Shown: positions 3,178 to 44,500 of the stretch, piece by piece
Layout of the letters: every line of letters begins with the position of its first letter
How positions within the stretch are numbered: the stretch's first letter is position 1
NCBI GenBank assembly: GCA_003999685.1
Contig: CP021225.1
Span: 682,001 to 746,000 of the forward strand
Length of the DNA stretch: 64,000 nt
Direction: 5' to 3'
DNA from: Taiwanofungus camphoratus
Taxonomy: Eukaryota; Basidiomycota; Agaricomycetes; Polyporales; Taiwanofungaceae
Made by a program: the position numbers and the translations under genes
Notes under the pieces: generated by a model
What the model was told of the DNA's origin: nothing
Database searches by the model: none
What the model saw: the letters and a program-made list of their open reading frames with translations, nothing else

Positions 3178-3235
3178 GTAGACAAAAGAAAAAAAAAAAA
3201 AAAAAAGTCGCATTTTCACCCCACTCATCGCTCGT

Positions 3236-3490: not shown

Positions 3491-3769
3491 ACTACACCGT
3501 ACGACCGACATGTCGTAAAACTGTAGAAAGTTCGAGCTGGAAGGATGCTCACGGTTGGAGGGGTCATCCCCTATGGTTGGAAGGGTCATCCCTTATAGGT
3601 CGCGGTGAAACACCCGCTCGTCACTTCCAGGAAAGTTTTTCAAGTTCATCCTCGGAAGTTCGTCAAGTTCGTCGACGGTCGCCAAAAAGTTCGACTCGGA
3701 GAAACTCGACGCGTCCCCATTGGAGTTTTAGTTGATTGACCAGGCGTTCAATCATAAGTAGGGGGGTAA

Positions 3770-4323
3770 TGATACAATTTCTTTCATCGCATATCTTATC
3801 GGTCGGACCTCGGATCGGTCCCGTGACCTTTCGCTTCTAGGACGGGCCTCGGGTAGGCCCAACTTCTTCGCGCAGCATCTTGACTCATCGCTGCTTACGG
3901 TACGGGCCCCGGACGGGCCCCGGTTACTCATGGACTCTGACTCATATCGGGCCCCGCTTACACATTCCGTCTTACGCTTACTGATTGCTAATACGGCCCG
4001 ATGACTCATATCGCCTTACTTACGCTTACTCATGCTGGTTCTTAGACCACGTGCCATGGTCCGTGCGCAGAGTAGAATACGTATATAAGGCCCTGTACTT
4101 TGTAGGTCGGACCTTAAGTTCGATCTGGTTACCAAGTAGCTAGTTACCACTAGCAATCTTATACTCGTATCTTGCGACCTCTCGCTTCGTACCTGAGTAC
4201 TCGCTCGACTCTATCGACTTCGCCCAGGAGGACATACGCAGTGTCCATAAAGCCTCACTACTATCCCTAGTAGCCAGGTCCTCACGTTCGAGGCTTTCCG
4301 GTCGTTGATACCAGCTTGTATCA
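3770..4323 (+). repeat. LTR of family A (shared by A1 and A2)
   Basis: A 554-base LTR starting TGATACA and ending TGTATCA. It follows a G-rich polypurine tract and is followed directly by the internal region of A2, so one LTR serves as 3' LTR of A1 and 5' LTR of A2. It appears identical by eye to the LTR at 10288-10841. It contains several short GGGCC-type inverted motifs in its upstream half. Confidence 0.95.
4082..4088 (+). promoter_or_regulatory. TATA box in family A LTR
   Basis: TATATAA lies about 310 bases into the LTR, in the position expected for the U3 promoter of the element. The matching box in the downstream LTR is at 10600-10606. Confidence 0.6.
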
Positions 4324-4424
4324 AAAGATCGAACTTACGCTAAGTCGCCCCTAGTCTTATCTAGTAGGGCTAACCGTTAGACACCACGTCTACCATCGAG
4401 ACAATCGACCCCACCGCTTGGGGA

Positions 4425-5747: not shown

Positions 5748-5830
5748 AGGGGCAGGGTGAGCCGACGCAACCACTGCCCGTATCCATTTCACTGTCCCGT
5801 GTTGTACTTGTAGTCAGGAATGACAGAGCT

Positions 5831-8800: not shown

Positions 8801-9715
8801 GAGGCACTATATCGTGAGGTGTACAAGTGGTTTGGTCTTCCGGACAAGATCATTAGCGATCGAGGACCACAGTTCGCATCAAAGGTATTCCAGGAGCTCT
8901 GCCGTATGACCGGAGTCAAGTCGGCCATGAGCACAGCGTTCCACCCTCAAACGGACGGAGAAACGGAACGAGTCAACCAGGAACTGGAGATCTACCTGCG
9001 ATGCTTCACGAGCAACAACCCGGACAATTGGTCGTCGCTGCTGGGCTCAGCACAATTCGCTCACAACTCGCGTGAGCATTCAACAATTAAGGCGTCACCC
9101 TTCAAGGTCATGATGGGCTATGAACCTCGAGGGATTCCCGTCGTACACCCCGGATCGGACACACCGGGCGCTGCTTATCGACTGCGGAACTTGCAGAAGA
9201 TTCGGGAAGACGCACACTCAGCAATGGAGCTAGCACAGGCGGTGTTAGCAAGACGCGTGAAACCCAAAGGAACGGGTTTCCGCAAAGGACAAAAGGTATG
9301 GCTAGACTCACGAAATCTAAAGCTACCATACCCGACGAGGAAGTTGGCTCCCAAGCGCGAGGGACCCTTCGAAATCACGGACGTTCTAGGACCGGTGTCT
9401 TACAAGCTGAAACTCCCGGCGACATGGCGAGTGCACCCCGTTTTCCACGCTGCACTTCTTTCACCATATACCGAGACGGACACCCATGGTCCCAACTACA
9501 CGGAACCACCACCGGAGCTTATCAGCGGCGAAGATAACTACGAAGTCGAAGCTCTGGTTGGACATCGTGAGAATCGCCGAAGGAATCGCCGAGAATATCG
9601 AGTCAGGTGGAAAGGTTACTCCTCCGCCGACGACTCGTGGGAACCGGAAGAGAACTTAGCCGGTACTGCGGACGAGCTGCTGGACGCATATAAGCAGCGC
9701 AAGAACTTACGATGA
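5831..9715 (+). CDS. Protease-RT-RNase H-integrase-chromodomain polyprotein, family A copy A2
   Basis: This is the enzymatic polyprotein of A2, about 1294 residues and apparently whole. An aspartic protease motif FIDSGASG lies near residue 18; reverse transcriptase follows, with YMDD at 7397-7408 (about residue 523); then RNase H, an HHCC integrase N-domain, an integrase catalytic core (SDRGPQF, HPQTDGETERVNQ) and a chromodomain at the C terminus. The listed start is the beginning of the clear protease homology. The codon there is TTG, and the frame is open further upstream through the end of gag, consistent with expression by frameshifting rather than by its own start. Confidence 0.93.
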   Translation: MHIPITVGRKAVEARAFIDSGASGIFVHPRFVKEHKLRTEALPRPIPVFNVDGTANKQALINRRALLSYKIGNEPRFVKAYVASIGNEDIIFGHTWLKLENPSIDWKGGRVELKHRMTLQESREWKKGIIAQRVARLELKKLAEREQEEALDPVLDYEVDWSAPPCPQVAAFLAERNKRLKQQWQPTIEEVEDEGDFEVIDTMSPVLPTTDMPRQTARRDIPVAPLVEESVNGITLDQAMETIDDDELVIAFIEGDDRIATYGRDSHPAYRDAPLTEERYPLDGSYRRLENGLIWQVKHDIGRLTTSTELAIKEHALKEEKPVTELVPEYLHDFLPVFDKAKAARLPRHSEFDHEINLKPDFKDFKQSTYSLNRDQRAELDKFLEENIEKGYIRPSKSPLASPFFFVDKKDGGYRPCQDYRELNEGTIKDRYPLPLVTELLERLNNATIFTKMDLRQGYNNLRIKEGDEWKAAFGVPAAGEGPPSFYEPRVMFFGMCNSPATFQRMMNTVFADMLKEGWLAIYMDDILIYSTDPEEHKKRTRRVIERLRDNDLYLKPEKCKFDVQEVEFLGMIIRPGQLAMDPVKVAGIRDWPIPKNLREVRSFIGFGNFYRRFIHSFSHLAQPLVSLTRKDVKWHWDDEQQEAFEALKKAFLEQPVLQMPDPEKPFALETDASKFATGAVLRQKDDNGDWHPCGYISQSMTPAERNYDVYDRELMGVMRGLNEWSHLLIGSPHPVTIYSDHKNLTYWKTARNLNRRQARWALRLSEFDYRLIHVPGTQMVQSDALSRRPDHDDGSSDNQDVTLLPDKVWAAAIDTSLRASIAEACVNDSVYTEGMRNARNGSNDHWTIRDGDLLYDNQVYIPLDEDLRRHTVSNYHDLLSAGHPGIQKTLSSIRRDYWWPGMADFVTRYVKGCGTCQQMKVNTHPTRPALLPIKSAQHATPFSTFCCDFITDLPTSEGYDSILVVVDHDLTKGVIFIPCNKTIDASGTAEALYREVYKWFGLPDKIISDRGPQFASKVFQELCRMTGVKSAMSTAFHPQTDGETERVNQELEIYLRCFTSNNPDNWSSLLGSAQFAHNSREHSTIKASPFKVMMGYEPRGIPVVHPGSDTPGAAYRLRNLQKIREDAHSAMELAQAVLARRVKPKGTGFRKGQKVWLDSRNLKLPYPTRKLAPKREGPFEITDVLGPVSYKLKLPATWRVHPVFHAALLSPYTETDTHGPNYTEPPPELISGEDNYEVEALVGHRENRRRNRREYRVRWKGYSSADDSWEPEENLAGTADELLDAYKQRKNLR

Positions 9716-10008
9716 GAAAGAAAAGTCGCATTTTCACCCCACTCATCGCTCGTATGTCTCAGTCAAACGGTCCTTCATCCTCGTTCACTCGCTACGGTCC
9801 ATGCTACCTCTGCGGTAGCACTCGTCACTCGCACAGGACGTGCCCCGACTACAAATGTCTCCGCTGTAGTCGCCCGTCGCCTGGGCACCTTACGCGCGAA
9901 TGCACCGCCGTCAATTACGCATTCGCCTACGACCCGGTACCGCCATATCATCCAGAGTGGTTCCTGCATGTCGTTAAACTGCGAGGGAACGACCGTGCAC
10001 GTCGTTAA
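9712..10008 (+). CDS. Post-pol zinc-knuckle reading frame, family A copy A2
   Basis: A 98-residue frame whose ATG overlaps the pol stop (ATGA at 9712-9715). An internal ATG at 9754 matches the start seen in copy A1. It carries two zinc knuckles, CYLCGSTRHSHRTC and CLRCSRPSPGHLTREC, followed by a tyrosine- and proline-rich stretch. The stop-start overlap is the arrangement known from termination-reinitiation coupling, so translation after pol is plausible, though this is inference. A comparable knuckle after pol exists in family B. Confidence 0.6.
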   Translation: MRKKSRIFTPLIARMSQSNGPSSSFTRYGPCYLCGSTRHSHRTCPDYKCLRCSRPSPGHLTRECTAVNYAFAYDPVPPYHPEWFLHVVKLRGNDRARR

Positions 10009-10287
10009 ACTACACCGTACGACCGACATGTCGTAAAACTGTAGAAAGTTCGAGCTGGAAGGATGCTCACGGTTGGAGGGGTCATCCCCTATGGTTGGAA
10101 GGGTCATCCCTTATAGGTCGCGGTGAAACACCCGCTCGTCACTTCCAGGAAAGTTTTTCAAGTTCATCCTCGGAAGTTCGTCAAGTTCGTCGACGGTCGC
10201 CAAAAAGTTCGACTCGGAGAAACTCGACGCGTCCCCATTGGAGTTTTAGTTGATTGACCAGGCGTTCAATCATAAGTAGGGGGGTAA

Positions 10288-10841
10288 TGATACAATTTCT
10301 TTCATCGCATATCTTATCGGTCGGACCTCGGATCGGTCCCGTGACCTTTCGCTTCTAGGACGGGCCTCGGGTAGGCCCAACTTCTTCGCGCAGCATCTTG
10401 ACTCATCGCTGCTTACGGTACGGGCCCCGGACGGGCCCCGGTTACTCATGGACTCTGACTCATATCGGGCCCCGCTTACACATTCCGTCTTACGCTTACT
10501 GATTGCTAATACGGCCCGATGACTCATATCGCCTTACTTACGCTTACTCATGCTGGTTCTTAGACCACGTGCCATGGTCCGTGCGCAGAGTAGAATACGT
10601 ATATAAGGCCCTGTACTTTGTAGGTCGGACCTTAAGTTCGATCTGGTTACCAAGTAGCTAGTTACCACTAGCAATCTTATACTCGTATCTTGCGACCTCT
10701 CGCTTCGTACCTGAGTACTCGCTCGACTCTATCGACTTCGCCCAGGAGGACATACGCAGTGTCCATAAAGCCTCACTACTATCCCTAGTAGCCAGGTCCT
10801 CACGTTCGAGGCTTTCCGGTCGTTGATACCAGCTTGTATCA
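10288..10841 (+). repeat. 3' LTR of family A copy A2
   Basis: A 554-base LTR, TGATACA to TGTATCA, preceded by a G-rich polypurine tract. It appears identical to the LTR at 3770-4323. A TATA box lies at 10600-10606. Family B sequence resumes at 10842. Confidence 0.95.
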
Positions 10842-15086: not shown

Positions 15087-15657
15087 TGTTACAAGGCGGT
15101 GATGGTGCGAACTTACATTTTCATTTCTCTTCACTATACCGGACTAGCGGGTCGTGTACACTTACAATTATCACCATTATTCCTGACGGGCTGACCGTCA
15201 CCCGCTTAGTTATGGACTGTTCCTCAGAAGGGACCACTTGGGCCTCTGACTTATGGACGCTTAGATACTGGAACCCGTGGGAGTGAGGGCTGGCTTGCCC
15301 TAAACCCACCATAGTACTTAAGGGGTTGGCTCACTGCGGAGCACCCCAATCTTGTCCTCCTTAGTTACACTGTGTACTTTGGTGCTGTCGTTACCATTTG
15401 TACTTTACGACTGGGCTTAGGCCCCTATACCTTTGTCTATTCAACGGGTCGCCTTAGACCATCTATATCCTTGTGACTACACTAGGACTTAGGCTGTGAC
15501 TTAGCCCGCAACTCTCTCGAGACCGTTGGGCTAGCGGTTGAAGACTTAGACGTGTACTCGTCGTCAGCCAGGCTGACTCCTCGTTTACACTTCGCGCCTG
15601 ACTACTCAACGACCCCCCGTCACGGTAGTCACCTACGGGCGTAGACCCCCCGTAACA
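15087..15657 (+). repeat. 5' LTR of B2
   Basis: A 571-base LTR from TGTTACA to GTAACA. It is identical by eye to 21087-21657. Confidence 0.95.
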
Positions 15658-15860
15658 TTAGGACAAGATTCCCTACAAACTCTATCTCAGGATAGCGAAT
15701 TAGAACGCGAACAAGCGGAAGAAACCGGACCCTCACCAACGTCCTCATAGGAAGGATTGGATAAGACCAGTGTCCCCGTTGGAAGGGACTGGCAGGAGGA
15801 TCACTTGACTACAAGTGCGTACCATCAGTGTTGAGTTGAAGGAAAAGAAACACCGGAAAG

Positions 15861-18800
15861 ATGGAGAAGTTCCTGGCGATAGTCTGGAGAGCTATCACCT
15901 GGCGAAGAAAATTGAAGGAAGGAAGGGAGGAAGACCACATACCCCGACCAGAAACAACAGAAGAAGCAGCCCTAGGGATCCCCTGGGATGGACCGCTTAC
16001 CCCAAGCGACGATGACCTCAGACTTTCTCAGCCCTCCACTGAAGCCCTCGAACAGGGGCAGAGAGGCACAGGCTCCAGGCAAGAACACCGACACAACCAC
16101 CCCAATACAGCTCTGACACCTCATCACTGGAAGAAGAGGAGCTGCTACCGATGCAGGAAGCCAGGACACTTGGTCAAGGCATGCCCGGAGCCCAGGAAAA
16201 TCAGAAAGGAAGGACACAGAGATGTGGCCCTAGGGGAAGCTGACGATGAACACGATAATCCACACAAAGGCGAACCCAGACTTCCACAACCTTCCAATGA
16301 TGCCGGGAGAGACAGGGAACTGGAACTGCACCACTCGTCAAACTCAGATGACTTCGCCTTGGAGGAAACCCAGCCATATCCGGTCCCACCAGCAGACTAC
16401 TGGAGCAGTGAAGAAACGGAGGAATCCTTAGGAACGTCCACCGTAGAGTCCATTGAACAGAAACGGTTCCCTCATTTTGAGCACTTCACTGATGCCCCAG
16501 GAGGGGAATCAATGGCTGAAGGCACAGGGAAACCTGCGCAAAGAAACTTGGACAAGTCAAAGACCAGTAAGGACCCGACCATCTCAATGGGGGCCACAAT
16601 CACAGGATATCGGAAAGGAACCACTCTGTATGTAGAAGGTTATGTCGTCGCCGGGAAAAAGGCCATTGCTGTGAGACCACTAATCGATAGCGGAGCCGAT
16701 GCCAACCTCATACACCCTGACCTTGTGGAACGATGGGGACTGCCCACACGACCGCTACCTCGGAAGGTACGAAGTACGACCATTGACGGGACCCCCAACA
16801 GGGGTGGACCAATTACCCATCGAGTTGAAGGGAGCATACGGCTTGAAGGGTATGACATACCCACAAACTTCTATGTATCAGACATCGGGGACCTCGAAGT
16901 AGTGCTGGGCAACCCTTGGTTGATTCAAGTCAACCCGCAGATCGATTGGCCGAAAGGGACCCTCACGGTTGACCTGGACAGGATTAAGGAATGGCAGGGG
17001 TACTATGCTTGGATCATGGACCAGCCTACCACGGACGGCATCCCATTGTGCCGAGCCTCTGCACACGAGGACGATGATGAGCTAGAAACCATCCTATGTG
17101 CTTATACAAGGGGAGAAGGGGTCTTAGGCATGTTCAACGATCAACCGGAACCCCTATTCGATGAAATGGGCCTGCTGCAGCCACCCAAGAAGTCTCAACC
17201 ATCGTTAGATCGGAACAGCCATGTAAGGGGCTCAAAACGGTTCATAGCCACCGCCAGGCAGACAAGCGCACCACTGACACCCCCTGAGGAGGGGCCACAG
17301 ATTGAAGACCTGGTGCCTGAGTACTTACTCGACTACCGGGACCGCTTTGAAAAGGCGGCCGCTGCTCGATTCCCTGCTTCGAGACCATGGGACCACGCTG
17401 TGGAGACAAAGCCTGACTTTGTACCTAAGAAGTGCGGGGTAATTGCATTATCCCTGGCTGAACAAGCAGAGATGGACAAGTTCCTTGACGAGAACCTGGC
17501 GAAAGGATATCTACGGGACTCAAAGTCACCCATGGCCTCCCCAGCATTTTTTGTGGCAAAAAAGGATGGTACACTCAGGCCCTGTCAGGATTACCGATAC
17601 CTCAACAACAGCACGGTGAAAGATGCATACCCACTCCCACTCATTGGAGAGCTCATCGACAACCTGCAAAAGGCAACCATATTCACGAAGCTGGACCTCC
17701 GAAATGGCTACAACAATGTACGCATCAGGGAGGGCGACCAGTGGAAGGGAGCGTTCATGGTGAATCACCACGGAACCAAGAAGCTAGTTGAACCAACGGT
17801 AATGTTCTACGGCATGTGCAATGCCCCGGCCACCTTCCAGCGGCTTATGAATGATGGGTTTCAAGACATGCTTGCGGAAGGATGGTTAGCCATTTATATG
17901 GACGACATCCTGATCTACTCCGATGATGCTACCATCCACCGAGAACGGACACGCCGGGTACTGCAACGCTTGCAGGAGATGGACCTTTTTGTGAAACCGG
18001 AAAAGTGTGCCTTTGATGTACAAGAAGTTGAGTTTCTGGGAATGACCATCACACCGGGCCACATCCATATGGACACTGGCAAGCTGCGGGGCATCGATGA
18101 ATGGCCCATACCGACCAAAGTCAAGGATGTGGAACGATTCCTGGGCCTTGCCAATTACTATCGACGGTTTATACGCGGATTCTCGGACATCGCCCACCCC
18201 CTGAATACACTTAAGAAAAAGGGGGTAGCTTGGAACTGGTCGAACAAGTGCCAGGCAGCCTTCGAGGCACTTAAACGCCGTTTTTGTGAGGCCCCAGTAC
18301 TCACCATGCCCGACCCTGAGAAACCGTTTGTAATCGAGGCCGATGCCTCACTGGTTGCAACAGGTGCAGTACTGCAACAGGAGGGCCCTGATGGGAAACT
18401 TCACCCGGTGGCATTCCTTTCAAAATCGCTGAAGGAAGCAGAACGGAACTATCAGATCTATGATAGGGAACTACTGGCAATCGTACGAGCACTTGAGGAA
18501 TGGCGTCACCACCTGGAGGGCGCAAAGCACCCGGTCACGGTTATAACGGACCACAAGAACCTGACATACTTCAGAGAAGCCCAACGGCTAACACGACGCC
18601 AGGCACGATGGCAACTGCTGCTATCGCAGTTTGACTTACTACTGGAGAATCGAAAGGGTAAACGACTCGTAGTGGCGGACGCCCTATCACGTAGACCAGG
18701 ACATCCAGGGGGTGAGAGGGACAATGAGGACATTGTCCTCTTACCAGAAACACTGTTTGCAAAGGCAGTTAATGTTGACCTCATCGAGCGCATCCGGCAA

Positions 18801-20294
18801 CACCGAAGTCGTGACAGCATGGTCATCGAGACGATTGACGCTTTAAAACGGGGGAAAGTACCACCATTCAAGGGCACTGGATTTGCACACACAACATTGG
18901 CCGATTGGGATGTGCAGGATGGATTGATTCTGTACAAAAATCGAATCTACGTACCCCCTAGTGACGACTTGCGCAGAGAAGTTATTCGACTTTGCCATGA
19001 CACCCCAGCTATGGCCCATCCAGGAGCACAGGGAACGTTTGCCATTGCCAGAAGGGACTGGTTCTGGGATGGCATGGCCACGTTTATTGAAAACTATGTG
19101 AAAGGCTGCGCCAAATGTCAGGAGAATAAGGTCAACACACATCCAACACGACCACCAATGCAACCCATCCCAACGGAACCGAACTCCAGGCCGTTCTCAC
19201 ACATCTCAGTCGACTTCATCACAGACCTGCCAGAATCGTGTGGATCTGACGCACTAATGGTAGTGGTGGACCGAGAACTGTCCAAAGGGATAGTCCTGGT
19301 TCCTTGCAACAAGACCATCGATGCAGTAGGAACAGCCGAGGCACTCCATCAGAACGTTTACCGGCGATATGGGCTACCTGACAGAATCATATCGGACCGA
19401 GGCCCACAGTTTGCAGCAACGGTGTTCCGGGAGTGGTGCAAGCTGACAGGTGTCAAAGCGGCCATGAGCACTGCCTACCATCCGCAGTCTGATGGAAGCA
19501 CTGAGCGTGTCAATCAGGAACTCGAAGCCGCATGGAGGATCCTGTGTGCCAACAATCCTCATAACTGGGCAAAGTTTATCCCGGAATTTGAATTCGCACA
19601 CAATCAGGTGCCGCATGCTGGAAGAAGGGAGTCACCATTCAAGCTGATTATGGGATACGATCCAAAGGCAATCGGATCACCAAAGGCATCAGAAAGGTAC
19701 CCATCAATCAAGGACCGACTCTTAGCTATCGGAGAGTTCAGAAAGGAAGCACTGGCAGCACAGGATCTAGCTGCGCAGTTGATGGCAGAAAGGGCTCGAA
19801 CCACATGGCAGCCATTTGAGAAGGGGACGCAGGTTTGGCTAGAAGCAACTAACCTCCGCCTAAAGACCCCGAGGAAGTTTTCCCCAAAGCGAGTGGGACC
19901 ACTCAAGATAGCCGAAGTCCTAGGACCGCTAACGTACAAGCTTCAGCTACCAAGGGCATGGAAGATACATCCAGTATTCCATGCATCACTGTTGACACCA
20001 TACAGGGAAACCAAGGAACATGGTCCGAACTTCACAAGGCCGCCCCCAGAATTAGTCGATGGCGATGAAGAATACGAAGTCGAAGCCATTCACGGGCATC
20101 GTGCCCAACGTGGGAAATGGCAGTTCCTAATCAAATGGGTTGGATGGCCGAACTCTGCTAATACATGGCAGTCCGAGGCGGACTTAAGGAACTCGCCCGA
20201 CCTTCTGGAGGAATATAAGAAGGTCAACAGGTTGCCTGCAAGGCCCCAGGTCAACGCCCGCTACACCCGGATCTGCAGAGCTGCATACAGCTGA
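15861..20294 (+). CDS. Zinc knuckle-protease-RT-RNase H-integrase-chromodomain polyprotein of B2
   Basis: A single 1477-residue frame with a true ATG. It starts with a charged leader and a CX2CX4HX4C knuckle (CYRCRKPGHLVKAC, near residue 95), then an aspartic protease (LIDSGADANLIHP), a reverse transcriptase with YMDD at 17895-17906 (about residue 679), RNase H, an HHCC integrase domain, an integrase core (SDRGPQF, HPQSDGSTERVNQ) and a C-terminal chromodomain (LIKWVGWPNSANTWQ). Compared with family A, a Gag capsid domain of several hundred residues is absent upstream. The copy may therefore depend on Gag from related elements, which is inference. Confidence 0.93.
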   Translation: MEKFLAIVWRAITWRRKLKEGREEDHIPRPETTEEAALGIPWDGPLTPSDDDLRLSQPSTEALEQGQRGTGSRQEHRHNHPNTALTPHHWKKRSCYRCRKPGHLVKACPEPRKIRKEGHRDVALGEADDEHDNPHKGEPRLPQPSNDAGRDRELELHHSSNSDDFALEETQPYPVPPADYWSSEETEESLGTSTVESIEQKRFPHFEHFTDAPGGESMAEGTGKPAQRNLDKSKTSKDPTISMGATITGYRKGTTLYVEGYVVAGKKAIAVRPLIDSGADANLIHPDLVERWGLPTRPLPRKVRSTTIDGTPNRGGPITHRVEGSIRLEGYDIPTNFYVSDIGDLEVVLGNPWLIQVNPQIDWPKGTLTVDLDRIKEWQGYYAWIMDQPTTDGIPLCRASAHEDDDELETILCAYTRGEGVLGMFNDQPEPLFDEMGLLQPPKKSQPSLDRNSHVRGSKRFIATARQTSAPLTPPEEGPQIEDLVPEYLLDYRDRFEKAAAARFPASRPWDHAVETKPDFVPKKCGVIALSLAEQAEMDKFLDENLAKGYLRDSKSPMASPAFFVAKKDGTLRPCQDYRYLNNSTVKDAYPLPLIGELIDNLQKATIFTKLDLRNGYNNVRIREGDQWKGAFMVNHHGTKKLVEPTVMFYGMCNAPATFQRLMNDGFQDMLAEGWLAIYMDDILIYSDDATIHRERTRRVLQRLQEMDLFVKPEKCAFDVQEVEFLGMTITPGHIHMDTGKLRGIDEWPIPTKVKDVERFLGLANYYRRFIRGFSDIAHPLNTLKKKGVAWNWSNKCQAAFEALKRRFCEAPVLTMPDPEKPFVIEADASLVATGAVLQQEGPDGKLHPVAFLSKSLKEAERNYQIYDRELLAIVRALEEWRHHLEGAKHPVTVITDHKNLTYFREAQRLTRRQARWQLLLSQFDLLLENRKGKRLVVADALSRRPGHPGGERDNEDIVLLPETLFAKAVNVDLIERIRQHRSRDSMVIETIDALKRGKVPPFKGTGFAHTTLADWDVQDGLILYKNRIYVPPSDDLRREVIRLCHDTPAMAHPGAQGTFAIARRDWFWDGMATFIENYVKGCAKCQENKVNTHPTRPPMQPIPTEPNSRPFSHISVDFITDLPESCGSDALMVVVDRELSKGIVLVPCNKTIDAVGTAEALHQNVYRRYGLPDRIISDRGPQFAATVFREWCKLTGVKAAMSTAYHPQSDGSTERVNQELEAAWRILCANNPHNWAKFIPEFEFAHNQVPHAGRRESPFKLIMGYDPKAIGSPKASERYPSIKDRLLAIGEFRKEALAAQDLAAQLMAERARTTWQPFEKGTQVWLEATNLRLKTPRKFSPKRVGPLKIAEVLGPLTYKLQLPRAWKIHPVFHASLLTPYRETKEHGPNFTRPPPELVDGDEEYEVEAIHGHRAQRGKWQFLIKWVGWPNSANTWQSEADLRNSPDLLEEYKKVNRLPARPQVNARYTRICRAAYS

Positions 20295-20319
20295 CATTCA
20301 GCGGAGGCACGGCACTACG

Positions 20320-20655
20320 ATGTCCACTCATACAGACCCCCGACAGCTATCCGTCTACTTGAACCACAGCGCAGCAAGGGTACGAGACCTCGCACCCCGA
20401 GTACGAGCAAGGCACACACACGCACACCCATACCGAAACATTCAGGAAACAGTGCCCCCATTGGCAGCGTCCGACGATCCGTACGATCAGTGGAGGCTTG
20501 CGCATCGCACTGCTTGGGCCCTGGTGGATGCCGATCTACGGCCAGAAATAGACACCCGGCTGTTGGCTTGGCCAGACCTGTGGGAGTTGACGAACATTTA
20601 TCGGACACTGGTCATTGTCGCGCGAGAGGCTGGCAGCTTGGCCACACTCGAATGA
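20320..20655 (+). CDS. Post-pol helical reading frame of B2
   Basis: A 111-residue frame with an ATG, beginning 25 bases after the pol stop. It has no recognised domain, but its second half is rich in Leu, Ala, Trp and charged residues and looks helical. The matching sequence is present in B1 from 10842, where it starts inside this frame. Together with the next frame it makes a roughly 750-base region between pol and the LTR that is conserved in both B copies. Its role is unknown. Confidence 0.4.
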   Translation: MSTHTDPRQLSVYLNHSAARVRDLAPRVRARHTHAHPYRNIQETVPPLAASDDPYDQWRLAHRTAWALVDADLRPEIDTRLLAWPDLWELTNIYRTLVIVAREAGSLATLE

Positions 20656-20703
20656 AGGCAAACAGGCCTTGGGCCAAATGGCAACAACCCGACAACGTGG
20701 CAG

Positions 20704-21075
20704 TTGGCCACTCTCCACATAGAGGCAAGCCGAGCAGCCCGCAACCTGCTCGCCGTCCTCATGCGCTCCCCTCTAATGGGCGTCATAGACAACCTGATAC
20801 CGCCACGACATCAGGCCAGAACACAGGCCCCTTCTGTCAGTGATGGTCCACCCAACTCTATCACTGGTGGTGCCCCTAGCTCGACCAGTGGGGGGAGCTC
20901 CCCCTTCTGCATACGATGCCGACAAATGGGACATTGGAGCCATGACTGCATGCATACCAGTGATGACGATATCCCTTCCGACCAGTCTGACACCCTCCGA
21001 CCACGAGCCAGGGTCAAATCAGAACAAGAGGGGTCAGACGCTGAGGGTTCGATCGTCGGGGCGACGAGTCCTTGA
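20704..21075 (+). CDS. Post-pol zinc-knuckle reading frame of B2
   Basis: An open frame of about 123 residues with no ATG at its listed start (TTG). It contains a classical CX2CX4HX4C knuckle (CIRCRQMGHWSHDC), a Ser/Gly-rich linker before it and an acidic tail. B1 encodes nearly the same protein at 11151-11522. This is a second knuckle in addition to the one in pol, as in family A. How it would be translated is not clear from the sequence. Confidence 0.45.
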   Translation: MATLHIEASRAARNLLAVLMRSPLMGVIDNLIPPRHQARTQAPSVSDGPPNSITGGAPSSTSGGSSPFCIRCRQMGHWSHDCMHTSDDDIPSDQSDTLRPRARVKSEQEGSDAEGSIVGATSP

Positions 21076-21086
21076 GAGGGGGGTAA

Positions 21087-21657
21087 TGTTACAAGGCGGT
21101 GATGGTGCGAACTTACATTTTCATTTCTCTTCACTATACCGGACTAGCGGGTCGTGTACACTTACAATTATCACCATTATTCCTGACGGGCTGACCGTCA
21201 CCCGCTTAGTTATGGACTGTTCCTCAGAAGGGACCACTTGGGCCTCTGACTTATGGACGCTTAGATACTGGAACCCGTGGGAGTGAGGGCTGGCTTGCCC
21301 TAAACCCACCATAGTACTTAAGGGGTTGGCTCACTGCGGAGCACCCCAATCTTGTCCTCCTTAGTTACACTGTGTACTTTGGTGCTGTCGTTACCATTTG
21401 TACTTTACGACTGGGCTTAGGCCCCTATACCTTTGTCTATTCAACGGGTCGCCTTAGACCATCTATATCCTTGTGACTACACTAGGACTTAGGCTGTGAC
21501 TTAGCCCGCAACTCTCTCGAGACCGTTGGGCTAGCGGTTGAAGACTTAGACGTGTACTCGTCGTCAGCCAGGCTGACTCCTCGTTTACACTTCGCGCCTG
21601 ACTACTCAACGACCCCCCGTCACGGTAGTCACCTACGGGCGTAGACCCCCCGTAACA
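21087..21657 (+). repeat. 3' LTR of B2
   Basis: A 571-base LTR identical by eye to 15087-15657, preceded by a polypurine tract ending at 21086 and followed by the CTATG target duplication. Confidence 0.95.
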
Positions 21658-21662
21658 CTATG
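21658..21662 (+). repeat. Target-site duplication of B2, right copy
   Basis: CTATG, matching 15082-15086. Element C sequence resumes here. Confidence 0.93.
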
Positions 21663-24600
21663 AAGGTCACAAAGTCAGCCCGAAGACCTTCCCTTGCTCC
21701 TAATCCGATGGTATCCCTTCCTAAGTTGTCAGATTCTTCCCCTATTCCTACATTTGCAGCATCAAAAAAGAAGTACAAGCCTGTAGCGCTGAAGACTTGC
21801 CCTATTCTGGGAGCATTGGACGAACGATTCCGAATCATTTGCGAAATTAAAGGCGACCCTTTAGCGACGATGCCTACCCTATCACCGACTCCACCACCTT
21901 TCGAACCTACTTCGCGATATACGCAAGAACGGCATGATCTCACGGACAAGCTACACAATGGAGACTTCCTACAACCAGCAGAGAGGGACCTCCTACATCA
22001 CTTTATGACCCTACATGCTGATGCGTTCGCTTGGAATGACTCCGAAAGAGGGTGCTTCAAGCCGGAGTACTTCCCTCCCATCGACTTTCCGGTAGTACCG
22101 CACACGCCATGGGTACAAAAGAACATTCCTATCCCACCCGGAATCTACAATGAAGTGTGCACAATCATCAAAAAGAAGATCGCAGCTGGGGTCTATGAAC
22201 CTTCGAATTCTTCCTATCGTTCACGATGGTTTTGTGTGGTGAAGAAAGACGGAAAGTCCCTACGTCTCGTACATAGTCTGGAACCCCTAAACGCTGTCAC
22301 GATTCAACACTCAGGTGTTCCCCCGACTCCCGAACACCTCGCAGAACAGTTCGGAGGACGACCTTGTGGTGCTATGTTGGATCTATATGTAGGCTATGAT
22401 GAACGCTTGATAGCGGAGACTTCGCGCGATCTTACGACATTTCAAACACCTTTCGGAGCTATGAGATTGGTCACTCTACCTATGGGGTGGACCAACTCGG
22501 TCCCTATCTTCCACGATGATGTTACGCACATCCTACAGCCCGAAATTCCTCACCTAACGGTTCCCTATATCGACGATGTTCCGGTCAAAGGCCCTGAAAG
22601 TTCGTACGATCTCGTACCTATTTCGGAGAACCCAGACATTCGAAAGTTTGTTTGGGAACATTTTACGAACCTCAATAGGATAGTCACACGCATGCGCTAT
22701 GCAGGAGGTACCTTTTCTGGAGTTAAAAGCATTCTAATTGCCCGCGAAATCACCGTTGTAGGGCATCGGTGTACTCCAGAAGGTCACCTACCGGACGAGT
22801 CTCATGTTGCAGCCATACGCAACTGGGGACCTTGTGCGACCCTATCTGACGTTCGAGCCTTTTTAGGAACCATTGGAGTGGTCCGTATCTTCATCCGAAA
22901 CTTCGCACATCGTGCAGATGCCTTAGTACGCCTAACACGAAAGGCAGTACCCTTCGAATTTGGTCCAGCGCAAATCGCAGCGCAGGAGGACCTTAAGGAT
23001 GCTTTGCTGTCCTCTCCAGCTCTCCGATCCATTAACTATTCGTCAGGTGCGCCCGTGATCTTAGCGGTTGACACCTCCTATATTGCAGTTGGCTATCACC
23101 TTTGCCAATGCGATGAGGACAACCCTAAAGTTCGATTCTACAATCGTTTCGGATCCATCACCCTAAATGATCGCGAGTGGAGGTTCTCGCAACTGAAGTT
23201 AGAGATCTACGGATTGTTTCGAGCACTTCGCGTACTACGAATCTACCTAATCGGAGTTAGGAACCTTATAGTGGAAGTTGACGCACGATATATCAAAGGG
23301 ATGTTCCAAAATCTGGACATCGCACCCAGCGCGAGTATAAATCGCTGGATCATATCGATTCTAACATTCCATTTCACCCTAGTACATGTACCAGGTACGA
23401 TGCATGGACCAGACGGACTATCAAGACGAACCCCCCAGCCAGGAGATCAAGAAGAGAGCAGCGAAGAAGACTTCGAAGACTGGATAGACAAAATGCACTC
23501 GTTTCTACATCACATACAAGCCCCCCCTTCCCATCCTATACCATCGATTTCTACCCTATTTCCTTACGAATTCGCCTCTAACATTCCTATCACAACCCCC
23601 ACACCTCCGATAGCTCCAACCTTCGCCTCCGAGTTGGCTGAGGACAGCCAAGGTTTCAATAGGGAGGAGGAGAGCTACGATAGCGTCCCAAGATCCGAAA
23701 TGGCCAAGGAAGCTGACGCAAGACTTGACTTAGTAGCAAAATTCCTACGAAGCCTCGCGAGACCTGCCAACCTATCGGATTCAGAATACGAAGGTTTCGT
23801 AAAATACTGTCTTCTATTCTTCCTCGATGAGGACATACTATGGCGCAAAGATCCACAAGGAGCTCACAAACTAGTTGTAAAGCAGGCAGATCGTCTACAA
23901 ATCCTCCGAGAATGTCACGATGCAGTCGCGCATCGAGGAATACACGCTACGAAGGTGCTGATTTCGGAGCGGTTTTGGTGGCCCTACCATCATATCGACA
24001 TTGCCTGGTATGTTCGAAGCTGCCACCTATGCCAGATTTGCCAAGTGCGGCAGATCCTAATCCCTCCTACGGTTGCTACGCCCGCTCCGATCTTCGCAAA
24101 GGTTCATATAGATACCATGCATATGCCCCCTTCTAACGGATTTAGGTACTTGGTGCAAGGCCGGTGTTCTCTAACCCAGTACCCCGAATTTCGGATGCTT
24201 CGCAAGGAGACGGCTAAAGCTTTGACAGAATGGCTCTTCGAAGACTTTGTTTGTAGGTGGGGCGCGCTATCGGAGATAGTCACGGACAACGGTGCTCCCT
24301 TCGTAAAAGCTACGAACTACATAGCGAAGAAGTACCAGCTACGACACATCCGAATTAGTGGATATAATTCGCGTGCCAACGGGCTGGTGGAGAGGCCTCA
24401 CTTCGATGTTAGGCAGGCTCTATTCAAGGCCGTGGATGGCGAAGAGTCTAAATGGTCTCAGGCAACGTACTCAGTCTTCTGGTCCGAAAGGATCACGACT
24501 CGAAAGCGCATGGGATGTTCGCCCTATTTCGCGGTCACTGGCACCCACCCTGTTATCCCTTTGGACGTCGTAGAGGCCACCTATATCCTTCCTCCTCCAT

Positions 24601-25109
24601 CTTCTATGCTATCCACGACCGATCTTATCGCACGTCAAGCTATCGCATTGCAAAAGCGGGTGACTCAGGTAGCGGAACTACATTCGAAGGTCTACGAAGC
24701 GCGAAGACAAGCTGCTCTGCGATTCGAAGAAAAGCATAAGCACTCCATCCACGATTTCAACTTCGAAAAGGGTGATTTAGTACTAATTTGCAACATGCAG
24801 ATAGAAAAGTCCCTAAATCGGAAGATGCGACCTCGCTACCTCGGCCCAGTACTCGTAGTATCTAGGAACAAAGGTGGTGCTTATATCCTATGCAAATTGG
24901 ATGGTTCGGTACTCGACAGGCCTACGGCAGCCTTCCGAGTCATCCCCTACTTAGCGCGAAAAGCCCTCGAACTTCCTACCGAACTCTTGGACGTGTCGAC
25001 GGAGCGACTTCGCGAATTAGAGCTGACTACCACCCAAGGCGATGACGAAGAACTAGGATCGTATCCCTACTCTCCTAAGTCCAGCTCTAGTCCATCCGAA
25101 GCTCACTAA
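21660..25109 (+). CDS. RT-RNase H-integrase polyprotein of element C
   Basis: A long open frame of about 1149 residues that belongs to element C and starts within the B2 target duplication, so its natural beginning lies on the other side of B2. It shows a reverse transcriptase with YIDD in place of the usual YMDD or YVDD, an RNase H region (AVDTSYIAVGYHL), an HHCC integrase N-domain (with WWPYHHIDIAWYVRSCHLCQ), and an integrase core with TDNGAPF and a late catalytic Glu in GLVERPH. No chromodomain was recognised at the C terminus, unlike in A and B. This is a distinct, diverged gypsy lineage. Confidence 0.85.
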   Translation: MKVTKSARRPSLAPNPMVSLPKLSDSSPIPTFAASKKKYKPVALKTCPILGALDERFRIICEIKGDPLATMPTLSPTPPPFEPTSRYTQERHDLTDKLHNGDFLQPAERDLLHHFMTLHADAFAWNDSERGCFKPEYFPPIDFPVVPHTPWVQKNIPIPPGIYNEVCTIIKKKIAAGVYEPSNSSYRSRWFCVVKKDGKSLRLVHSLEPLNAVTIQHSGVPPTPEHLAEQFGGRPCGAMLDLYVGYDERLIAETSRDLTTFQTPFGAMRLVTLPMGWTNSVPIFHDDVTHILQPEIPHLTVPYIDDVPVKGPESSYDLVPISENPDIRKFVWEHFTNLNRIVTRMRYAGGTFSGVKSILIAREITVVGHRCTPEGHLPDESHVAAIRNWGPCATLSDVRAFLGTIGVVRIFIRNFAHRADALVRLTRKAVPFEFGPAQIAAQEDLKDALLSSPALRSINYSSGAPVILAVDTSYIAVGYHLCQCDEDNPKVRFYNRFGSITLNDREWRFSQLKLEIYGLFRALRVLRIYLIGVRNLIVEVDARYIKGMFQNLDIAPSASINRWIISILTFHFTLVHVPGTMHGPDGLSRRTPQPGDQEESSEEDFEDWIDKMHSFLHHIQAPPSHPIPSISTLFPYEFASNIPITTPTPPIAPTFASELAEDSQGFNREEESYDSVPRSEMAKEADARLDLVAKFLRSLARPANLSDSEYEGFVKYCLLFFLDEDILWRKDPQGAHKLVVKQADRLQILRECHDAVAHRGIHATKVLISERFWWPYHHIDIAWYVRSCHLCQICQVRQILIPPTVATPAPIFAKVHIDTMHMPPSNGFRYLVQGRCSLTQYPEFRMLRKETAKALTEWLFEDFVCRWGALSEIVTDNGAPFVKATNYIAKKYQLRHIRISGYNSRANGLVERPHFDVRQALFKAVDGEESKWSQATYSVFWSERITTRKRMGCSPYFAVTGTHPVIPLDVVEATYILPPPSSMLSTTDLIARQAIALQKRVTQVAELHSKVYEARRQAALRFEEKHKHSIHDFNFEKGDLVLICNMQIEKSLNRKMRPRYLGPVLVVSRNKGGAYILCKLDGSVLDRPTAAFRVIPYLARKALELPTELLDVSTERLRELELTTTQGDDEELGSYPYSPKSSSSPSEAH

Positions 25110-25643: not shown

Positions 25644-27021
25644 CTAAACCTCGGCCTCGGCATCTTCCTCATCCTGCTCGGACTCACCGGAGGGACCAGG
25701 ATCAGTAGAGGAGGCGGCGATGCAACGGCGAGGAAGAGGGAGAGAACTCAAGTCGAGCGGCGCAGGCGTACGACCGGTTAGGGCAGTTTCGGCACGATAG
25801 AGCCCCGAAATGTAGTCTTCGAGACGCATCGCGCGACTCTCGGCCATCGCGCGGTCATACCAGAGGCCTTCGACAACGGCTTGATGCGCAGGGGTGAGGC
25901 CATCCAAGTATTCGGCGCCGTTAAGGGCCAGCGAGGCCTCGAGCGACATCGTAGGCGCAGGGGTCGACTTCGCCTTCTTGGGCTCGCGGGCGCGAGGCGG
26001 GGACACCTGAGGAGGTTGGCCCGCAGCTAGGGGACGCCCTAACATCAGCAATGACGCGATAACGAGGGCACGAGAAGCCCTACCGCGCTTCGAAACGCGC
26101 ACTCCGCGCTCCTTACCGTCTACAGAGAATCCGCCCCAATAACACCCCTGCGACTCTCGAAGGCACTTACCGCACTTCATGGCACCCACGGGGAGTTCGC
26201 ACTCGAAGTCGGTGGTGTAGGTGCTGCAGCGATCGCACTAGGTAGCGATGATAAGTCGCGAACAGTCACGAAAAAGATGTGCACTCACCTTCGCATGGGT
26301 TCGCCGATGCTCTGCCGCCTTCGCCATGTTAGCCAGGGCTTCAGGCGTCGGAGGGGCCTTCGCTTTCGCAGTGTCCTTCCCCTGAGTAGAAGGGACCCCT
26401 ACGAAGACACCCGAACTTGTGGACGAGGCGAGTTCGCCAACTTGGCCGCTAGAAACGGAGGCCATGATCGAGCTGGCCTGGGAAGCCGCGCGAGTAGAAG
26501 CTGCTGCCTTGGCCCGAGCTGAGGGACGACGAGTGCGCGATGAGGTACGACTAGGGGCCGGCGAGGGAGCAGAAGACGAAGCCGCAAGTTGGGCAGCGCG
26601 TTCAAGCGCAGCGCGCTTGGCCGCCTCCACACGAAGTCGTTCGGTCGCGCGGGCGAGTTCGCGCTGTGCGTCTTGCTCTTGAAGCATAGCAGCGAACTGA
26701 GGAAAGCCGGTGCGGGCCCACGAGATCCATGACGAGTCCGCGAGAGGGAGGATCGCCGTCAAACCTTCGACGATGGCGGCCTCTAAGGTAGGATCGGCGG
26801 GAGCGTTCGAAGCCTGGGACAGGACCCGCCAGTTACCCTATAACACAGTGAAGACGATGTAACGAGCGATCGAGGAGGGTACGTACCACACGACGTCCTA
26901 AGTTCCTCGCCCACCGCAAGTAATCTTTGGCCTCCGCTACGCCCTCCGGATGAGAATCGAGGAGCGCCAGGACATCGCTGTGAGCTAGGCCAACACCATC
27001 AGAGTCCATATCGTCGAACAT
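25644..27021 (-). CDS. Antisense intron-containing Cys-rich gene carried by element C
   Basis: A minus-strand gene between pol and the putative 3' LTR of element C. The likely ATG is at 27021 (MFDDMDSDGVGLAHSDVL). Exon 1 joins exon 2 across an intron of about 50 bases (donor GTACGT near 26887), and exon 2 joins exon 3 across another (donor GTGAGT near 26288, acceptor CCTAG). Both joins keep frame. Exon 2 is Ala-, Ser- and Arg-rich and partly coiled-coil-like. Exon 3 begins with a Cys cluster: CDRCS, then FEC, MKCGKC and GCYWGG. It ends in an acidic tail. The family is not identified; Cys pairs of this spacing suggest metal binding, which is inference. A possible extra 48-base intron in exon 3 would also keep frame. 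Confidence 0.6.
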
Positions 27022-27188
27022 GATGGGGAAGGGAAAGGCAAAAGGGGAGGAGGAGAAAAAGATAAGAGGCACCCACGATTAGCTTCTATCAGGATATCGC
27101 CCGCTTCGCAGATCGGATGCGATAGGCTACAAGTTCCCACGGTCGCGCACACTGACTGAGGACAGTCAGGATTTCAATAGGGAGGAGG

Positions 27189-28990
27189 TGATGAGTCCCG
27201 TAGCCTCCTGGGCCCCGAATCGCAATTTTAGGAGCTTTCTGATCCCCCAACCGACCACTCTAAGACTCTCCTACAGCCTACGACAGGAGGGATAGGTTCC
27301 TATAATATTCCTAACGCCCCCTCTCCTTCCTAAACCCTCCTAACACCCTACGAAGTCTTGCGAAGTCACACGAGGTGCTACGAGATTTCGAATGCTAGAC
27401 GCGAAGTCCCTAACTCCTGCTAAGTCCACTATTGGACACTGCCGGCCCTCCCATGCTGTTCCATTGGATCTAGGTCCTATCTACTACGTCACTCATCCCG
27501 GGCTTAGCTAAGAAGTCTTAGCTAAGTCTCTCCTAGCTCTTATGATTGCAGCTACCTCTGATAGGCTCCGAAACGGTCCGAAGTTCCGGAAGTTGGACTT
27601 AGGAAGCCTTGTGCACCCCCATGGGTCTCGATCCTATGCCATAAGGTCATCCTAGGGCGTACCCATATGACCCTCCACCCAGTTAGGACACCTCCTGCCC
27701 CGATTAGGCCAAGTCCCGCTGCTAAGAACTTTGTGCGCTCTTAGCCCACTAAGATAGGTGATCACGGCGCATGGCTGCTCTCGGATAGTCATCCCGCCCT
27801 CGTGAATGAACTTGGTCACCTTTCTACCATACGTAGTTCCCCTGTTTCAGTTCCTAATTAGTTCCTATCCTCCTCGTGTTCACTTCGGAGTCCATGCGCT
27901 TTAGTACACATTTCAGACTCGTTAGGTTCACTTCGCGCAAGAATAGTTCACTTCACGCTCCCCTATTTAGTCAGAGGTAGTTTACTATGTACGGGAGAGA
28001 CCCCTCAGTGCACGCTTCTCTCTTTGGAATACAAGTTCCCCTGTAGCTCTGATCTCAGGAAAGCGTCGTGAGTACAACCTTAGGAACGGTCCTAAGGCCC
28101 CTAAGTCTCCACCCCAGCTCCGTTTCAGTACCTTTGAACTACGTCTATGCTCGCGATATATCTACGAACCACGTCTACACTTCCTGAACTACGCACTACG
28201 ATCTACGAAGTCGCCGCAACTTTGCGCCCTTCAGCACCTCTTATAGCACCTATCCGGTGGGCCTCCGCCTTAGTTATACCCTTAGGCTCACGTTGCGCCA
28301 TTCCTACGTCCTACGAATAACCCTACGACTCCCCCATAGCCTTCATTACAGGCTATAGTACATCTCTCTACACCCTCGAACTCTCCGACCTACACCTCGA
28401 AGTCATCAGACACTTCAGAGCTTCCGGCAACCTCGTTCTCCCATTCCTATTCCAAGTATTAGCTCTCTGAACCATCTGACCTCTCCTACAAGTCTCCTAC
28501 GCTAGCCAAACCTCGCTCTAACAAACCTCTAAGTCTTACGCCCTTTAGCTAACTCTAGCTAAAAGGACTTCGCAGCAGTCTCGTACCCTCTGCCGCTTAG
28601 TAGAAATTATAGTCCATTGGCTTATTGCTCCCTAACTCCATACAGCCTACGAAGTCAGCTCGTGCGATTTAGCTAAAACTTCAAAGGACTTCGCAGAATC
28701 TCGAAGAACTTTGCGTACTTCGGAGGGCCTCGCAAGGCCTTAGGGATTGTATAGCACTTAGGAACAAGATCCTGTTGTGCAGGACCCTTGACCCCTTACT
28801 CCCCTACTTACAAAAACAAGACATACAGGTTTCCCGGTATCATACAGGTTGTAGCTCCTACCCGCACATCCTCACAGTTATCACACTACCCCACAGCCAC
28901 GTTACGGAGCACTCCCTAGGTACCAGGGTCCCCTAGGTCGTATCAGCGCATATCTTCTCTGCTGTCTGGTAGGTACAGGAGACTACATAA
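27189..28990 (+). repeat. Putative long 3' LTR of element C
   Basis: A purine-rich tract (AATAGGGAGGAGG) ends at about 27188 and is followed by TGATGAGTCCC, the usual layout of a polypurine tract and LTR start. The following 1.8 kb has no reading frame and contains many short ACGAAGTC- and TTCGCG-like motifs. The right end is a guess because the 5' LTR is not in the window for comparison. Confidence 0.5.
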
Positions 28991-41552: not shown

Positions 41553-44500
41553 CTACAGCCTCGCCTTCTCACGGCTCGTCACCTTAACCACTCTTTTAAG
41601 TCGCAGTTGATCAGTTATGAGTTGGGATGTTCGAACAGCAGCATCACAAACACGTACAGTTTACCTGTGTTTCCTCCGTTAAACAACATAAGTAGAGCTT
41701 GGGGTGCGTTTTCCAAGCCCTCCACGACGTGGAACTTTCGTTTGAGATTGCCATCGTTGAGTAGTCCAGCTAAATATGTCTGGGCTTCGGGGTAACGTTT
41801 GGCAAAATCAAAGCTGCATGCAATTTAGTAACGTCAAGAAGTGAATGCTGAATTAGAAAAACATACACCAAGAAACCTTCTATCTTTGCCCTTTGCGAGA
41901 TCAGATTCAGATATCCAGAAAGACCTTTGGGTTTTACAGAGTCTAGCAAATCATATCAGAATGCAGTGAGTGAAAGAATAGCCTGACAACTTACTGTAAT
42001 CCGAAATAGCACCTACATGATGGTGAGTCCAGGGTAAGAAAGCAGCGCAAATGCCCACTAACCGCAGAGGACAATCCTTGCACCCTTGTTCATTCTCGTC
42101 AGCGCAAAGTCCAATATATCTCCACCAACATTATCAAAGAACACATCGAAATAGCCCACAGAGTTCTTGAAGTCGTCATGGAACGTAGAGCTCTTGTAAT
42201 TGAGCGCTTTATCGACGCCAATATCCTTCTCAAGCCATTCACACTTCTCTGTGGAGCCCGCAATAGCATATACCTTGGCGCCCTTTTGCTTGCCAATCTG
42301 GCAGACGACGGAACCTGTCGCCCCCGCCGCCCCAGAAACGACAAGCTTTTCACCGGGCTGCACCTTGCCCACCTCGAGCAAACCCTATGAACAGAAGATC
42401 AAAGGAACTACAAGCAGAGAGTCCGACTTGACGACGCACAAAGTAAGCCGTGAGACCTGACATGAGTGGTCAACGCGAGACTGACAGTTCAGACGACTAG
42501 TTGAACAAACCTGTGGTACCCAGAGCACCCAGGAAATCAAGAGGCTCTGCGCCTCGGGGAAGTCTACAAGATTATGAGAAGCGGTCTGGCACGCACTCAA
42601 AGACTATTCGGCTTCTAAGCGAGCGCGAGGCACGAGCGCGACCATAGAATATAGTCTACGTACGGATTAGGCAGTGCGACGCGCTCTCTCTTATCCAGCG
42701 TCGCACACTGCAAAAACACTGCTCGACGACACAGTTCTCAGTCGACAGTGTCGCTTTGAATTTCATAATTGATATAGAGTACCTTGAGACTAGTATCCTA
42801 GGCAGTAACACGTCAGAGCAATGCAGAGACTACTATCGGATCCATCCGAGGCCCAATGTCCAGACTATGCATCTCCGAGATATGCAGCTACTCGGGCATC
42901 ATGTATCAATGCCAACACTACTGAGGCTCAAGCAATCCAGCTGCTGATAAACATATGGCATGAAGCCAATCAGGTGGATAGACAACAGTGGCAAAACCAG
43001 CTAGATGAACAGGCAGCAATACTAGAAAACCACATTCATCTAGCAGAGGAAGCCGAGACACATCGGCGTGAAGCTGCAAAGATCGAAGAAGAAGCCACAC
43101 GGAAGGAAGAACTAAAGAAGAACAAAGGGAAATACATTCCTATTCCAGACCGAGATGCACCAATCATCACACCAGTTCTTCCGGCAACTTATGCAGTCAG
43201 GAAGATGGAAAAAGGTCTGTATGTGGAGATGTACTATTACACTAACAAGGGGCTTGACGAGGCAATCAATGTCACTGGCACAATTGATGATGAAGCAATG
43301 GTTCTCCAACAAAATGCAAATGGAACAACGGCGTGGGTACCTGCTGCCGCAACCAGAGATGCGCATGGTGTTATCGATGACAAGGATCTGGTGTGGGAAG
43401 ATTTCTGCCAGGCAGTTCCGAGAATGATCCTTGCCATGGAACAAGCTGGATGGCTTGCGGAGCGAGTCCTCATGGTCGCAACGTTCTGGGGAAATCTTCA
43501 GATTCATCCAATGCGGTCATCGAGAGATCCATTGGATCAGAAGACGCTACTGCTCTATCAAGCGGAGCAGCGGAAACTGTGGCATATGGCCATCCCCTCA
43601 GCACAGGGTGCATGGAATCTATCACGAATCAGTGAAGAGATCTTAGAAAAAACCAGGGCACGAGTTTACTGGGAAGACCGACGACAAAAAGACAATCAGA
43701 GAGATTTGTATGTCCATAATATTCATATGCCTTAGAAATTTATACTCACATTACCCCCCCCCCCACCTTCTTTCAATGTCGGGATTTATCTCCCTTTTTT
43801 CATCCTATTCCATCTGCCATCAAATGCCATCTGCCATCATATGCCATCTGCCATCATACGCCATCAATCAATGTGCCATCATGTGCCATCGCAAAGCCGA
43901 GCTGAACAGCGCAGTATGCAAAATCCGAATATGGTGATATCCTTGCCAAGACACTTGAGTCATGCCCAAAGCAGCTCGAACATTGGTCGAGTGCCATCAG
44001 ATAGCCATCAGCATGCCAATGTGAGAACTGCGGCACAACCTTATCCATCTCGAAAACAGAATTTTCAAGCCGGCACAAGTGGACGTGTCCTCTCTGCTTG
44101 TGCCATCTGTCTTGGACGTCATCAACACCGTGTCATGGAATGCTGCGACACAAGCATATGGGACAAAACACACTCATCTCTGGCGCAGCGAATCAACAAA
44201 GTTCTCTCGCTGCGAGACGGCCGAGCCCTATGCTTCAATTGGCAACGCCCCGAAGGATGCACAAGCAGGAACCACGACGAACGTCATTTATGCTCAGGGT
44301 GTGGACAGAACACTCACGGAGCTCAGCAGTGTCCTCGAGCAGAGAAAGCATCAACCTATCACACCGTATAAAAGAGATCATTGGAAGATTTACTTACAGA
44401 GCGCGGGACTTCTTCCGAAATATGATCTTCTACTGGCAGGCTTGCGAAACGGCTTCATCATCAACATACCTGATATATCGCATACACAAACTCCATCTAA

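Follow-up and report, generated by a model that had tools for sequence, protein, structure and literature searches.

An intron-bearing antisense gene between pol and the 3' LTR of a gypsy-type element in Taiwanofungus camphoratus

Can a protein gene with several introns be a regular part of an element that is copied through RNA? The question is raised by a locus of the 33.2 Mb, 15-contig genome of Taiwanofungus camphoratus, in a stretch of 64,000 nucleotides (contig CP021225.1, positions 682,001–746,000 of the forward strand; hereafter the window, to which positions refer), in which the strand opposite to pol of a gypsy element, here element C, carries exons for a Cys-rich protein. The initial annotation suggested that, if conserved between copies, this antisense, intron-containing gene would encode an accessory protein of the element, a reading now borne out by a pN/pS of 0.14 and by introns kept in 21 of 21 copies. 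With a probability of about 0.8, we consider this a true accessory gene, coding for a protein, that a fungal gypsy lineage carries on the opposite strand between pol and the 3' LTR. We demonstrate its structure, its conservation, the purifying selection acting on it, its linkage to pol in several element families, and the introns and Cys cluster that these families share.

The gene occupies positions 27021–25644 of the minus strand, between the pol stop at 25109 (plus strand) and the 3' LTR, which starts at about 27189. It consists of four exons separated by introns of 49, 51 and 57 nt and runs from an ATG at 27021 to a stop codon at 25646–25644, with a product of 406 residues. The gene models for the window and for two relatives, L041 of element family D and the stand-alone homologue L030, were built from splice motifs and homology. 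The features are as follows.

21648..25109, plus strand: pol of element C (RT, RNase H, integrase), portion 3' of nested element B; Pfam RNase H and integrase zinc-binding matches
25644..26026, minus strand: exon 4, acidic C-terminal tail and stop codon; pN/pS 0.197; stop identical in 21 of 21 close copies
26027..26083, minus strand: intron 3, 57 nt, phase 1; GTAGGG...CTGATG...TAG in 21 of 21
26084..26237, minus strand: exon 3, Cys cluster C-x2-C-x8-C-x8-C-x2-C-x6-C; pN/pS 0.083; spacing also in L041 and L030
26238..26288, minus strand: intron 2, 51 nt, phase 0; GTGAGT donor and YAG acceptor in 21 of 21
26289..26837, minus strand: exon 2, helical region followed by Ala/Ser/Arg-rich low-complexity region; pN/pS 0.144
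26838..26886, minus strand: intron 1, 49 nt, phase 0; GT...AG in 21 of 21; position common to L030 and L041
26887..27021, minus strand: exon 1; ATG and donor GTACGT identical in 21 of 21
27189..28945 (both ends approximate), plus strand: 3' LTR of element C; repeat-pair boundaries

Coordinates, strand, exon order and Cys cluster had been given correctly in the initial annotation. Its count of at least three exons also stands, but what it took for the last exon is split by the 57-nt intron 26083–26027, which makes four. This intron was added to the model because, taken as codons, it has a pN/pS of 0.86 amid constrained neighbours and because there is an intron at the corresponding place elsewhere: a counterpart of matching place and phase is modelled in both L030 and L041. 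The two relatives also have a similar first exon, and they share the position and phase of intron 2, which sits immediately 5' of the CDRC codons.

The carrier has the LTRs and the gag-protease-RT-RNaseH-integrase order of Ty3/gypsy elements. Pfam matches in its pol are to the RNase H and integrase H2C2 domains; the RT and the integrase core gave no Pfam hit at E up to 1 and, like gag and protease, were recognised by eye only. The 3' LTR begins with TGATGAG at about 27189, just after the purine-rich tract AATAGGGAGGAGG. Repeat pairs open at the same point in the stretches L011, L017 and L027, and they close near 28945 in L011, L017 and L018/L045. The last 299 bp of this LTR gave at least 523 first-look candidates genome-wide, the best 40 of the 523 being scored. 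In one copy, represented by the pieces L045 and L018, a gag-like frame in sense orientation, with both a Cys-rich segment and a protease-like region, can be made out by eye upstream of pol. The gag-protease frame (L018:1–1299) and the frame that leads into pol (1256–5110) overlap in different frames, which suggests frameshifting or a similar device. The LTRs of this copy are 99.8% identical over the 557 bp compared; the family has therefore moved recently.

Element C is split in the window (at 15084/21648) by element B (15087–21657), a younger chromodomain gypsy element whose two LTRs agree completely (100% over 571 bp); the frame of exons 3–4, used as a query, found no match in element B. Other repeats of the window include a 4.3-kb direct repeat within 1–10841 (1–4323 and 6539–10841, 98%), which belongs to other gypsy-like sequence, two exact 191-bp direct repeats 476 bp apart (47630–48296), and a 158-bp stretch that recurs exactly at 42608 and 47821 (42608–47978).

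A search of the genome with the exon 2 frame, the query being extended to the stop inside intron 2, returned at least 78 matches, of which at least 61 cover nearly the full length at an identity of 91% or above; these and the other genome-search counts are lower bounds because only the best candidates were scored. Stops are present in 10 of the 61 near-full-length matches (among the matches listed). Base-level reading covered 21 close copies, that is, the window and 20 others out of at least 61. Every one of them has the ATG, the stop codon and canonical splice borders at introns 1 and 2, the GT-AG of intron 3 is likewise kept throughout, and there are no indels within the gene (0/21). The frame is open in 17 of the 21 copies, with one stop each in L010, L013, L014 and L028. 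Absence of the frame from other copies, which had been named as grounds for refutation, is thus not what the at least 61 close copies reveal, and the suggested comparison of splice sites across copies ended in canonical introns in all 21. A genome search for family C copies in which exons 2 and 3 are joined without the intron, with up to 3 mismatches allowed, found none, which supports the view that antisense orientation explains the introns.

Six older relatives (L035–L040) were compared apart from the close copies. Five of them carry stops; the intron 2 acceptor is broken in L035, and L040 is without exon 3. L032 was excluded from alignment A2 because its frame holds a stop. In L013 (C1:3711214), the antisense gene and 3' LTR are those of element C, and the pol side is occupied by sequence of a different gypsy element. 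At L031:2856–3562, a gag-like plus-strand frame directly adjoins a relative of antisense exon 2, which has the appearance of a derivative from which pol was lost.

Summed over all pairs of the 21 copies, the antisense gene has a pS of 0.084, a pN of 0.012 and hence a pN/pS of 0.14, as against 0.154 for pol (window 21657–25106) in 20 of the same copies, L013 being left out because its pol is not alignable. Within family C, the antisense gene is therefore as constrained as pol, and lack of purifying selection, the other outcome that was to count against the gene, is contradicted by these values. The ratio is 0.15, 0.144, 0.083 and 0.197 in exons 1 to 4, respectively, lowest in the Cys exon, and it is 0.07 for the whole gene when CpG-transition columns are masked by codon. 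Divergence in introns 1–3 (0.051, 0.069 and 0.054) compares with 0.012 at second codon positions, and the intron 1 value (pi 0.051) with an exon pS of 0.084. When all six frames are compared, low pN/pS is confined to the predicted minus frame (0.14) and one plus frame (0.179), whereas the remaining frames give 1.4–2.3. We attribute the low plus-frame value to wobble positions shared with the minus frame; this plus frame has 12 stops in the window copy, and plus-strand coding was rejected. A chance open frame was rejected on the basis of the 17 open copies of 21, the lack of indels in all 21, and the pN/pS of 0.14. Against the older relatives L035–L040, dN/dS is 0.11–0.22 under a three-exon model. 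Constraint is weaker in family D, where dN/dS is 0.32–0.64 over the six pairs of four copies (L041–L044), L042 having two stops and L044 one broken codon. Silent divergence in the antisense gene (0.084; 0.156 in the Cys exon) exceeds the 0.048 of pol in nearly the same copies, and exchange between subfamilies is a possible cause.

Linkage to pol extends beyond the close copies. The frame of exons 3–4 has at least 115 matches in the genome and the integrase half of pol at least 97; the two sets were paired by position, each row being a match, so that a few loci give two or three rows. Among the matches listed, at least 97 Cys matches follow a pol by no more than 6 kb, as counted along pol's orientation (94 antisense to it, 3 sense), and at least 18 lack such a pol. 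Conversely, an antisense Cys match lies no more than 1.7 kb downstream of 92 of the 97 pol matches listed. Divided by pol class, and again among the matches listed, the Cys exon is downstream in 62 of 63 close and 30 of 34 diverged matches, the 30 being 65–75% identical to the window pol. It was not found at five of the 97 pol matches listed; the four diverged ones are 76, 75, 64 and 56% identical to the window pol. Distances between pol and the Cys exon in the 94 antisense pairs listed are 537–547 bp in 62, 628–935 bp in 29 and longer in three. The Cys exon of L041, used as a query, has at least 111 matches, which include the family D copies, a third set at about 60–80%, family C at about 37–45%, and L030. 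In viral contigs, the frame of exons 3–4 found no match and the integrase half of pol a single, unconfirmed pattern match.

Five exons were placed in L041; three of its introns are at places equivalent to those of the window, in phases 0, 0 and 1, and one is additional. Splice dinucleotides are kept in all four family D copies (L041–L044). The antisense proteins of families C and D (L041) are 26% identical over 355 aligned positions, as opposed to 75% for the integrase half of pol. Nevertheless, the Cys spacing given above for exon 3 recurs in all three sequences (C, L041 and L030), and the motifs CDRC, EC, C..C and GCY.G are common to C, D and L030.

The four exons of L030 (G000:C3, about 1164016–1165346) are all open, and all three shared intron positions are occupied; the donor of the third intron is weak as a motif and was picked on grounds of homology. 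The L030 protein shares 40% identity with that of the window and 28% with that of L041. The locus has no pol match (best E 0.29), and its neighbour matches RNA12 (PF10443, E 4.8e-09). All long tblastx matches between L030 and the first 9 kb of L018 are confined to the antisense gene. Two short segments also match beyond it, probably by chance; one of these includes a 23-bp blastn match to pol (E 0.0008). Another candidate homologue, L046 (C8:1441391), is a weak match (E 0.007) that aligns without the Cys cluster and was rejected as unrelated. Presumably it is similar to a glutathione transferase.

An open single homologue outside the elements is a case of gene exchange between host and retroelement, and its direction can be argued both ways. 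If a host gene had been captured by an ancestor of the elements, L030 would be the surviving host gene, with which its open exons, the missing pol match, the host-type RNA12-like neighbour and an intron at each shared place all agree. However, in an unrooted comparison of three sequences, L030 is closer to C (40%) than either is to family D (26–28%), and origin from the element lineage fits this better. We rate host capture as a serious but minority possibility and lean, on these unrooted identities, toward L030 being a domesticated element gene.

For the protein, no Pfam or NCBIfam family reaches its cut-off, and PDB sequence searches gave 0 matches. SusD-like Pfam matches of the window protein (E 0.005–0.014) fell below the curated cut-off and were rejected, bZIP gave no match at E up to 1, and Lzipper-MIP1 matched the helical part weakly (E 0.094, below the cut-off). 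AlphaFold2, run on the single sequence, predicts helices with a block pLDDT of 80–94 over exon 2 residues 21–80 and lower values after that, one helix covering residues 46–87; the Cys cluster modelled alone has a mean pLDDT of 53.6 and is unusable. The 110 residues before the cluster have a net charge of +12 in C, +14 in L030 and -5 in L041, and the last 25 residues one of -9, -12 and -6, respectively.

The cluster has six Cys with two C-x2-C pairs, like the fungal Zn2Cys6 domain (PF00172), whose spacing follows C-x2-C-x6-C-x5-12-C-x2-C-x6-8-C. The first loop, however, has 8 residues here instead of 6, in all three sequences. PF00172 gave no match at E up to 10 for the three Cys exons, and hhalign against approximate sequences of four yeast Zn2Cys6 domains gave a probability of 4.9% (P 0.008) with the Cys of the first loop unaligned. 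Membership in this family was rejected on spacing and profile tests. The HMM search of exon 3 that had been suggested as a check for a zinc-binding fold thus found no Pfam family at cut-off. Since the cluster model is poor and no library recognises the cluster, we only infer zinc binding and a nuclear role.

How would such a gene work? Antisense transcription could start at a promoter located within the 3' LTR or shortly before it; the LTR edge lies 168 bp from the ATG. The TATAWAW pattern is absent from window 27000–28950, and a promoter scan with a bacterial consensus yielded nothing useful. The transcript would then be spliced and translated into the 406-residue protein, in which a helical N-terminal part and a basic segment precede a cluster of six Cys that probably binds zinc, and the tail is acidic. 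As the initial annotation rightly argued, an intron that runs antisense to the RNA being reverse-transcribed can outlast many rounds of copying through RNA. Here they would persist because the sense genomic RNA that is reverse-transcribed has no working splice signals for them, and they imply long inheritance of the gene through an RNA intermediate, in antisense.

As to function, our tentative preference, held at somewhat less than even odds, is that the protein binds nucleic acid in the nucleus and regulates either LTR transcription or silencing of its own element, in a role comparable to that of HBZ of HTLV or to the one proposed for plant antisense ORFs (aORFs). Next in rank, but unlikely, comes a counter-defence protein that blocks host silencing (RNAi, DNA methylation or similar). 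The Cys gene is kept at 92 of the 97 pol matches listed, and between C and L041 it has diverged faster than pol (26% versus 75% identity), as expected of a protein in conflict with the host; the tight constraint within family C points the other way. A Gag-like or nucleocapsid function supplied from the opposite strand would account for a helical N-terminal part followed by a Cys cluster, as in Gag proteins. We regard it as very improbable: the cluster is not of the CCHC type (zf-CCHC gave no match for the antisense protein), and one element copy has, by eye, a gag-like frame of its own in sense orientation upstream of pol, so that an antisense Gag was rejected.

The least credible reading is that the gene acts only as RNA that pairs with the genomic RNA, its frame being incidental. 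By position alone an antisense transcript would pair in this way, and retroelement antisense RNAs may act via dsRNA (as described in PMC7264820). Yet selection follows the codons, with a pN/pS of 0.14 in frame and near neutrality of intron 3 as codons, no copy of 21 has an indel, and the Cys residues are kept between proteins that are only 26–40% identical. This codon-level selection marks a protein gene under constraint like that of pol. On a bolder view, a long shot and less likely than counter-defence, this gypsy lineage would have evolved its own HBZ-like control: a new kind of Cys6 zinc protein, translated from a spliced antisense mRNA that starts in the 3' LTR, would act on that LTR, and the host would have retained L030, the one stand-alone copy, as a domesticated regulator or restriction factor against the element.

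The titles and abstract openings of the open-access PMC articles retrieved contain no report of an antisense Cys gene with several introns in a gypsy element of a mushroom-type fungus, nor, within the same scope, of an antisense multi-intron gene over several element families, of the Cys cluster, or of a stand-alone homologue. Antisense genes in retroelements are otherwise known. The HBZ transcript of HTLV is spliced, and HBZ is a bZIP protein. Its gene is antisense with a promoter in the 3' LTR (PMC7264820), a location that we infer for the promoter here; the window protein differs in that it has no bZIP match. In plants, antisense ORFs in the same place and orientation (aORF-3R) include gene23 of Grande and those of RIRE2, Retand (TRP28 domain) and PvRetro13 (PMC7264820, PMC11963269). 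As described there, they occur in most copies, are conserved and have been suggested to be regulators; the Grande product is nuclear (PMC7264820, PMC11963269), and antisense TRP28 ORFs are found in 97% of Retand clusters (PMC11963269). The fungal gene behaves likewise, being present at 92 of the 97 pol matches listed and conserved like other proteins of the element (pN/pS 0.14 versus 0.154), although the plant proteins are different (TRP28, SMC and others). The word 'intron' does not occur in the main text of PMC7264820 or PMC11963269.

The closest parallel in place is brtn of the Boty-like gypsy elements, for which Zhao et al. 2011 (Virology) is said to be the primary paper. Boty of Botrytis and Sclerotinia is described as having this antisense gene between pol and the 3' LTR (PMC7264820, PMC8365987, PMC4227169). 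Accordingly, the kind of gene was already known, also in fungi, and the earlier statement that fungal gypsy elements offer no described counterpart with this Cys pattern fails as far as the kind goes; the pattern itself is recognised by none of the libraries searched. Boty differs in being a chromodomain element of ascomycetes (PMC4227169). What brtn of Botrytis cinerea and Sclerotinia has in common with the gene described here is that it is an extra antisense gene in the same place of a fungal gypsy element, and with such genes of LTR retrotransposons known from plants and Botrytis, their roles have now become directly testable in a fungus.
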